Source: Armatimonadota bacterium
GTDB lineage: Bacteria; Armatimonadota; JAAZEB01
Assembly (NCBI GenBank): GCA_012512505.1
Contig: JAAZEB010000055.1
Span: 1-49,999 of the forward strand
Direction of reading: 5' to 3'
Length of the DNA stretch: 49,999 nucleotides
Part shown: piece by piece, positions 22,721-24,891 of the stretch
How the letters are laid out: every line of letters begins with the position of its first letter
How positions within the stretch are numbered: position 1 is the first letter of the stretch
Position numbers and translations under genes: made by a program
The notes under the pieces: model-generated
The model's input: the letters and a program-made list of their open reading frames with translations, nothing else
Database searches by the model: none
Told to the model about the DNA's origin: nothing

Positions 22721-23686
22721 TCAGCCCTCCATGGCCAGGGCTACCGCGCCGCGGACGCCGGCGTCGTAGCCCAGTTGCGCCGGCAAGATGCGGGCCGCCG
22801 CGTAAGGCGGCTCCATGCAGTAATCGCGCGTGCGCTCGCGCAGCGGCACGAAGAGAAGGTCACCGGCTTCCGACACGCCTCCGCCGAGGATGATCGCCTG
22901 CGGGTTCAGCAGGTTTAGCAGGTTGCCGATGGCGATCGCCAGGTACTCCACCGTCTCGTTCAGCACGCGCCGGCCGCCGGGATCGCCCTCCTCGGCCGCG
23001 CGGAAGGCGGTTTTGGCGGTGATCCGCTCCGGGTCGCCGCCGGCCAGGGTGAGGAGGCGGGCCCCCAGGGCGGGGTCGCCTTCTGCCAGGTCGCGCGCGC
23101 GCCGGCCGATGGCGGTGCCGGAGCAGAGCGCCTCCAGGCAGCCTCGATGTCCGCAGCTACAGAGCGGCCCGCCGGGCAGCACGATGGTGTGCCCGATCTC
23201 GCCCGCTGCCGTGCTCACGCCCCGGTGCAGCCGGCCAGCAAAGACAAGCCCTCCGCCGATGCCGGTGCCGATGTTGATGTAGACGATGTCCTGCAGGCCC
23301 TGCCCGGCGCCGAAGCGCAGCTCGCCGAGGGTGCCCACGTTGGCGTCGTTGTCCACTCTGGCCGGCACGGCAAACCGCTCTTCCAGCAGCGCCTTCAGCG
23401 GCACGTCTTCCCAACCGGGCACCTGGTGCGAGAGCCGCACCGTGCCCGTCGGCATATCGACCGGGCCACCGAAACCCACCCCCACGGCACGCACGCCCGC
23501 GTCGCGCGCGCTTTGGCCCGCCAGCAGCGTCTCTACGGCGTCGAGGACACCTTCGAGGATCGCCGGGGCCGTCCCCCCCGGCTCGGTCACCCGCCGTTCG
23601 ATGCGCAGCAAGTTGCCGCTGGCGTCGGCCAAAGCGATCGTCTGGTTGGTGTTGCCAAGGTCAATCCCAATGAAGCGCGCGTCCAT
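22721..23686 (-). CDS. ROK family sugar kinase (glucokinase-like)
   Basis: A 321-residue ATP-dependent sugar kinase. The phosphate loop is FIGIDLGNTNQTIAL (most ROK kinases have DLGGT-K). Catalytic base D lies in VDNDANVGTLGE, followed by NIGTGIGGGLVFAG. Zinc-binding CSCGHRGCLEALCSG and GEIGH identify ROK rather than hexokinase. The C-terminal adenosine segment is ILGGGVSEAG. There is no HTH, so it is a kinase, not a repressor. Glucose is likely but unproven. The ATG is used although no strong SD is seen. It is divergent from the CinA fusion gene, with 41 bp between. Confidence 0.9.
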   Translation of the reverse strand: MDARFIGIDLGNTNQTIALADASGNLLRIERRVTEPGGTAPAILEGVLDAVETLLAGQSARDAGVRAVGVGFGGPVDMPTGTVRLSHQVPGWEDVPLKALLEERFAVPARVDNDANVGTLGELRFGAGQGLQDIVYINIGTGIGGGLVFAGRLHRGVSTAAGEIGHTIVLPGGPLCSCGHRGCLEALCSGTAIGRRARDLAEGDPALGARLLTLAGGDPERITAKTAFRAAEEGDPGGRRVLNETVEYLAIAIGNLLNLLNPQAIILGGGVSEAGDLLFVPLRERTRDYCMEPPYAAARILPAQLGYDAGVRGAVALAMEG

Positions 23687-23727: not shown

Positions 23728-24891
23728 ATGGCGCGCGCGCGGGCGTATCTGTCCCGTATGGACGAAGCGATCCTGCGAAGCATCGAGGCGATCCACGCCG
23801 GGCCGTACCGGTGCGTGGTGGCGGCCACCGGCGCCGGCAGCGAGGCGATCGCCTGGCTGCTGCGGGTGCCGGGCGCCTCCGCCACGCTGCTGGAAGCGGT
23901 CGTTCCCTATGCCGGGCGGGCGCTCAGCGAGTTCCTGGGCAGCGCGCCGGCCCACGCCGTCGCCCGGGAGACCGCCGCCGCGATGGCCGCACGTGCCCTC
24001 GCCCGGGCGCAGCACCTGAACGAGGGAGATGCCCCACTGGTGGGCGTGGGGGCGACCGGCGCCCTTGCCACCTGCCGCCTTCACCGGGGCGAGCACCGCG
24101 TGCATGTCGGCGTGGCAAGGGCGGATGCTGCCGCCGTCTACTCGCTGGTGCTGAACAAGGGGGCGCGCACCCGTGCGGAGGAAGAGGAGCTCTGCAGCCG
24201 GCTGCTGCTGCACGCCCTGGCACTGGCTTGCGGGGTGATCCCGGGGTTTGCCTTGCCGCTGGCGCCGGAGGAAGGTCTCCGCGTCACCGGCGCCCTCTCG
24301 CCGGTCGCCGACTTGCTGCAGGGGCGCGCGCGCAGCCTGCGGGTGGCGCCAGACGGCCAAACAGAGGCCGATGCCCCGGTAGCCGGTGGGATCCTGCCCG
24401 GGGCGTTCAACCCGCTGCACGTCGGGCACCGGCGCCTGGCGGAAGCCGCCGCCGAGATGCTCGGCGCCCCGGTGGCGTACGAACTTTCCCTGGAAAACGT
24501 AGATAAACTGGCACTCCACGAGGAGGAGGCGCTGCGGCGCGCCCGTCAGTTCAGCGGGTGGGCCACCCTGCTGCTGACGCGGGCGCCCACCTTCCGCGAG
24601 AAGGCGCGCCTTTTCCCGGGGTGTGTCTTCGTCATTGGGTACGATACCGCAGTGCGGGTGGTAGCCCCCCGCTACTACGCCGGAGAGGCGGATATGCTCG
24701 CCGCCCTGGGTGAGATCCGCGAGCACGGGTGCTCCTTCCTGGTGGCCGGCCGCCTGCACGGGGGAGCCTACCACACCCTGGCCGATGTACCGATCCCGCC
24801 GGCGTTCCACTCCCTTTTCGCGGAGATCCCCGCGTCACGCTTCCGGGAGGACATCTCCTCCACGGAGTTGCGGGCCGGCGGCGGGCAGTGA
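23728..24891 (+). CDS. CinA-like NMN deamidase domain fused to nicotinate/nicotinamide nucleotidyltransferase-like domain
   Basis: 387 residues with two enzymatic domains. The N-terminal part (about 20-180) is the CinA C-terminal amidase: [52 protein letters not shown]. This domain deamidates NMN to NaMN in known enzymes. The C-terminal part (about 222-384) is a Rossmann nucleotidyltransferase: [20 protein letters not shown] with HVGH at 231-234, [11 protein letters not shown], and ISSTELR at 376-382 near the end. A single protein could therefore convert NMN to NaMN and then to NaAD, but the adenylyl step is inference. CinA/nucleotidyltransferase fusions also exist in plants. A second ATG at 23758 is possible, and neither start has a good SD. 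Confidence 0.8.

Follow-up and report, generated by a model that had tools for sequence, protein, structure and literature searches.

The window, i.e., the whole stretch of 49,999 nucleotides of Armatimonadota DNA analysed here, carries an uninterrupted open reading frame of 387 amino acids on the plus strand at positions 23728-24891, as the preliminary description had it. The natural start is probably ATG 23758 (residue 11), since the protein of the closest relative, L002, begins at that residue in the alignment; the earlier start at 23728 adds 10 residues. The features of the gene are collected in Table 1. A ROK-type sugar kinase gene lies divergently at 22721-23686 on the minus strand, 71 bases from the probable start, and a glucokinase-like gene adjoins the fusion in SAR86 members too, although the pairing is not general. 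No neighbouring gene is conserved across phyla, nor is any shared by the window and L017, its closest relative, and operon context was therefore dropped as a guide to the substrate.

Table 1. Features of the fusion gene, with positions in the window
Feature	Position	Strand	Remarks
Fusion-protein CDS, probable start	23758..24891	+	start placed by L002
CinA/PncC-fold N-terminal domain, residues about 13-172	23764..24243	+	HHalign to canonical PncC; Foldseek to 2a9s
TGAGS, residues 34-38 (family TGGGS; canonical PncC SCTGG)	23827..23841	+	active-site loop lost
VPGAS, 47-51, retained mononucleotide-phosphate loop	23866..23880	+	G49, S51 50/50
Y61, phosphate-binding Tyr (TtCinA Tyr-296)	23908..23910	+	50/50
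L66, at catalytic Lys position (TtCinA Lys-301, OiPncC K314)	23923..23925	+	Lys 0/50
T110 (TtCinA Thr-340)	24055..24057	+	Thr/Ser 50/50
R149, counterpart of TtCinA Arg-377 (phosphate-binding)	24172..24174	+	50/50; alternative register R147 39/50
Nucleotidyltransferase C-terminal domain, residues about 216-385	24373..24882	+	PF01467 26.3 bits; HHalign to Pof1-like, NadD
(H/T)xGH ATP motif, 225-234	24400..24429	+	G225, F227, P229, H231, G233, H234 invariant
ENVDK, 256-260, Pof1-like NxDK motif	24493..24507	+	N257, K260 invariant
GYDTAVR, 304-310, GxDTxxR motif	24637..24657	+	common to stand-alone Pof1-like L007/L008
DISSTELR, 375-382, SXXXXR ATP-binding motif	24850..24873	+	motif match

The product is a fusion of a CinA/PncC fold and a nucleotidyltransferase (NT) domain. 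At the level of Pfam, CTP_transf_like (PF01467) exceeds its cut-off of 21 bits over residues 222-382, and CinA (PF02464) falls just below threshold over residues 36-95 (21.1 bits against 23.5). The AlphaFold2 model, built from a 50-sequence alignment, has a pLDDT of 94 and a pTM of 0.89. Its N-terminal half matches CinA/PncC crystal structures in Foldseek (2a9s; TMt 0.72, probability 1.00), and its C-terminal half matches the NadD structures 2h29 and 4ymi (probability 1.00), in line with the NadD comparison suggested earlier. No match to a COG1058/MoCF domain was found in the protein. Thus the unusual two-domain architecture and the missing MoCF half, both proposed in the preliminary description, are borne out: whereas two-domain CinA joins COG1058 to PncC, here an NT domain is fused to the PncC fold instead. 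Plant CinA-NT proteins (Arabidopsis At2g01220-type) presumably have the same two-domain order. A literature search on the pair of CinA-like and NT domains found no paper.

Family and distribution of the fusion

Including the window protein, 78 full-length fusions were gathered from the host phylum and the named genomes searched, and for that reason the fusion is not a product of chance. A genome scan with the single sequence gave no relatives, whereas the alignment-based scan recovered them; the plasmid search found no relatives of the fusion. The members are about 344-426 amino acids long, with a constant domain order and a mean identity of ~39%. They span at least eight bacterial phyla, the hosts being Armatimonadota, Chloroflexota, Planctomycetota, alpha- and gammaproteobacteria including SAR86, Gemmatimonadota, Latescibacterota, Rokubacteria and Trueperaceae (Deinococcota). 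Within Armatimonadota the distribution is patchy (6/251 genomes). The tree of the fusions mixes phyla in places, which does not prove transfer where metagenome-assembled genomes (MAGs) are involved. In one Armatimonadota genome (G072:C177; L006/L016) the fusion gene is split: an in-frame TGA separates its halves, and the N-terminal half contains a stretch of unknown residues, so that either the assembly has a gap here or the gene is broken.

A PncC fold with an altered active site

The N-terminal half aligns with the canonical PncC of the same phylum with a probability of 96% (HHalign, E 2e-9), and shares its fold with the PncC/CinA proteins (PF02464), such as E. coli PncC, Thermus CinA (4ct8/4uux) and the Agrobacterium protein (2a9s). 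The active site of OiPncC comprises E281, S282, T284, G286, S299, Y309, K314, S/T356, G357 and R394, and in the inactive E. coli proteins YdeJ and YfaY one or more of these residues are altered (PMC3855486). In TtCinA the amides of Gly-284 and Ser-286 bind phosphate (PMC4246079).

When 50 diverse fusion members were aligned with 31 canonical PncCs, E. coli PncC among them, the general-base Lys was found in 30 of the 31 canonical proteins and in none of the fusions, where the position is mostly L or M. The ESCTGG loop is likewise lost (E281 0/50, S282 6/50, T284 1/50, G286 2/50), the Gly after the Thr-340 equivalent (OiPncC G357) is retained in 3/50 members only, and E56 stands at the first Gly of the PncC/CinA GG. 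What the fusions do share with PncC/CinA is the phosphate site of VPGxS and Tyr, the Thr-340 equivalent and the Arg: the equivalents of Gly-284, S299, Y309 and Arg are each present in 50/50 members, and S/T356 is Thr or Ser in all 50. Judged from these residues, the mononucleotide-phosphate pocket appears to be kept and the deamidation side gone. Of the "CinA-type amidase domain" described earlier, the fold stands (HHalign, Foldseek), but the amidase active site is lost in the 50-member alignment, and deamidation of NMN to NaMN finds no support, the catalytic Lys and Glu both being 0/50 and the Ser 6/50. The domain does not seem to be simply decaying, as it has acquired a nearly invariant set of residues of its own (E56, K/R119, G121, H123, R124, K144, R149, E153).

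The nucleotidyltransferase domain

By its motifs and profiles the C-terminal half is predicted to be an ADENYLYLTRANSFERASE of the NadD/Pof1 type. The HVGH (residues 231-234) and ISSTELR (376-382) motifs reported earlier are both present, both ATP motifs are nearly invariant across the 50 members, and H231, G233, H234, N257, K260, K292, G304, D306, T307, R310, R342 and S378 are invariant in the domain. The T/HXXH and SXXXXR motifs of the Pof1 type are found as H231/H234 and S377-R382. In HHalign the best profile match was to the stand-alone Pof1-like proteins L007 and L008 of the same phylum (E 3e-21), followed by NadD over most of its length (E 2.5e-13) and by CoaD over 46 residues only; RibF and NadR were weak.

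The domain resembles NadD (TIGR00482) in the NT fold, in (H/T)xGH and SSTxxR and in a profile alignment that covers most of the domain. The protein differs from NadD in scoring far below the curated cut-off (17.9 bits against 112.45), in having the NxDK, GxDTxxR and RYY motifs and in the fused N-terminal domain; moreover, most hosts of the fusion have a true NadD besides. L007 and L008 score 62 and 59 bits, respectively, against the NadD model, which they match along its length. With these two proteins the fusion shares GSFNP, NVDK, GxDTxxR and SSTxxR, but they are stand-alone proteins, and the fusion has the CinA-like half. The comparison with Pof1 suggested earlier is thus an apt one, the label "Pof1-like" being based on the motif pattern of the family, with L007 and L008 as proxies for the yeast Pof1 sequence. 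Yeast Pof1 (YCL047C) is reported to be a nicotinamide mononucleotide adenylyltransferase (NMNAT) that accepts NMN alone, unlike Nma1/2 (PMC13191266). The stand-alone genes (L007:1501-1890 and L008:1501-1833, with NVDK, GxDTxxR and SSTxxR) belong to Armatimonadota family f21, and the L007 genome carries true NadD as well.

NAD synthesis in the hosts and the proposed function of the fusion

Nearly every cell needs an NAD-making enzyme that acts by adenylyl transfer. Among the 47 carrier genomes, NadD was above the cut-off in 33, near-threshold or partial in four and missing in 10. Seven of these 10 are SAR86-type gammaproteobacteria (G276, G281, G282, G284, G285, G287 or SAR86A, and G290), representatives of very common ocean bacteria, and none of the seven gives a match to the standard model of either NadD or NadE. 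PncB/NadV and any CinA-family match other than the fusion are also absent from all seven; the MAGs and single-cell genomes of SAR86 are incomplete, but the joint absence nonetheless recurs in seven of them. Weak NadE matches in SAR86 (about 33 bits) cover part of the model only, lie in longer ORFs and were taken as GuaA-type.

For SAR86A the entire sequence (1.25 Mb; L198-L264) and for G284 about 1.1 Mb (L286-L345) were extracted and searched with E. coli proteins by tblastn. Nothing significant was found in either for nadA, nadC, nadD, nadE, pncA, pncB, pncC or ligA, while the positive controls recA, trmD, ribF, nadK and rsfS were recovered. The SAR86A match to nadB is the succinate dehydrogenase flavoprotein within the sdh operon. 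By PF01467 and a motif scan, the only NT proteins of SAR86A are CoaD, RibF and the fusion, to which some other SAR86-type genomes add a cupin-fused sugar-type transferase; L171-L175 contain a gammaproteobacterial cytidylyltransferase-like domain joined to a cupin-like C-terminal part. On this evidence the fusion is the sole NMNAT candidate left in the two SAR86 genomes inspected (nearly) in full, and it is likely to be the NAD maker of SAR86, filling the missing NAD-forming step, unless NAD is imported whole.

LigA, the NAD-dependent DNA ligase, is otherwise near-universal in bacteria. SAR86A and G284 encode ATP-dependent DNA ligases (L231:18830-19999 on the minus strand and L327:10317-11486 on the plus strand, respectively), which are 86% identical to each other, apparently replace LigA and would spare NAD. 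PnuC (PF04973) is found in most of the NadD-less gammaproteobacteria. In SAR86A the gene, annotated as "nicotinamide riboside transporter", lies in a locus (L260:4139-7715) composed of a TPP riboswitch, a TonB-dependent receptor, the PnuC-family transporter and a thiamine-kinase-like APH protein (54 bits to ThiK). Its product is probably a thiamine transporter, and salvage of nicotinamide riboside via PnuC in SAR86 was dropped because of this location.

The fusion is probably an enzyme of the NMN adenylyltransferase kind whose N-terminal domain is a pseudo-deamidase, and the strongest functional evidence for this comes from the SAR86-type genomes. From these we infer both substrate and direction: with no NadE the enzyme would have to use NMN there, and with NadD and NadE missing, NaMN made from NMN could go no further. 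The reaction would be NMN + ATP -> NAD+ + PPi, catalysed by the C-terminal Pof1/NadD-like domain. The N-terminal domain would descend from the NMN deamidase PncC, having lost the deamidation machinery and kept the 5'-phosphate pocket, and would most likely bind NMN (or else NAD or NaMN), serving for docking, regulation or dimerisation. Against this reading count the NadD of most other hosts, G000 included, where the fusion is not needed for NAD, as well as the lack of operon context, the thiamine locus of the SAR86A PnuC, which leaves uptake of nicotinamide riboside unsupported, and the distance of the SAR86 members, which share only 32-35% identity with the protein of the window.

The preliminary description proposed a channel in which the N-terminal domain turns NMN into NaMN and the C-terminal domain turns NaMN into NaAD. 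Its second step holds to the extent that the profiles indicate an NT domain of the pyridine-mononucleotide type; NaMN as the substrate is disfavoured by the NadD- and NadE-less SAR86 hosts, in which known enzymes could use neither NaMN nor NaAD. Such bifunctionality agrees with the PncC fold, the conserved phosphate site and the Thr-340 equivalent, with the lack of another PncC in G000 and its kin and with the NadE of G000 (212 bits), which could use NaAD. It is nevertheless improbable, given the loss of Lys, Glu, Ser and the Gly357 equivalent in all or most members, its redundancy in many hosts with canonical PncC and NadD, its dead-end products in SAR86 and the reported NMN specificity of Pof1 itself (PMC13191266). 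Should the N-terminal domain instead be a ligand-free relic, scaffold or dimeriser attached to an NMN/NaMN adenylyltransferase, the loss of the deamidation residues would follow, but a scaffold would need neither a complete phosphate pocket nor the charged residues, several in number, that are conserved along with it over eight phyla, and we regard this as very improbable.

A different substrate altogether is a less remote prospect, though still an unlikely one: the NT domain would move AMP (or CMP) to another phosphorylated compound, and the N-terminal domain would have a new activity towards that metabolite or one related to it. The newly acquired, nearly invariant residues of that domain do suggest a working site, the gene context is not NAD-specific, NadD is present in most hosts and the score is far under the NadD cut-off; on the other hand, the NT half is nearest to the NadD/Pof1 type, and SAR86 would be left without any other NMNAT. 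If the NMN adenylyltransferase reading is right, the fusion might, more tentatively, represent an undescribed NAD-forming class, in which a former NMN deamidase now senses or delivers NMN as one half of an NMNAT, serving as the sole NAD-forming enzyme in SAR86, which would have dropped the NaMN route (NadA, NadC, NadD, NadE) and even LigA. The "CinA-like" label would then shift from a predicted NMN deamidase to a pseudo-enzyme domain.

The same reading suggests how some lineages manage without PncC. The host genome G000 (96.9% complete) has true NadD (181.6 bits) and no PncC besides the fusion. The PncC family was matched in 228/251 Armatimonadota genomes, in G000 only via the fusion itself, and is lacking in 4/6 carriers against 20/245 non-carriers of this sample (Fisher p 0.0009, uncorrected for kinship). 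It is absent from the two family members of G000 and from G072 (f32), so that the fusion-bearing families f1 and f32 are without it, whereas the f6 carriers have PncC. The state of f1 and f32 is as expected if NMN is recycled straight to NAD+, which would make PncC dispensable; a new deamidase would do likewise, but the residues argue against it. The fusion as a plain replacement of PncC was dropped, since several hosts carry both. Four Armatimonadota genomes (G001, G016, G072 and G000) are without canonical PncC/CinA, and nearly all other near-complete genomes of the phylum have one.
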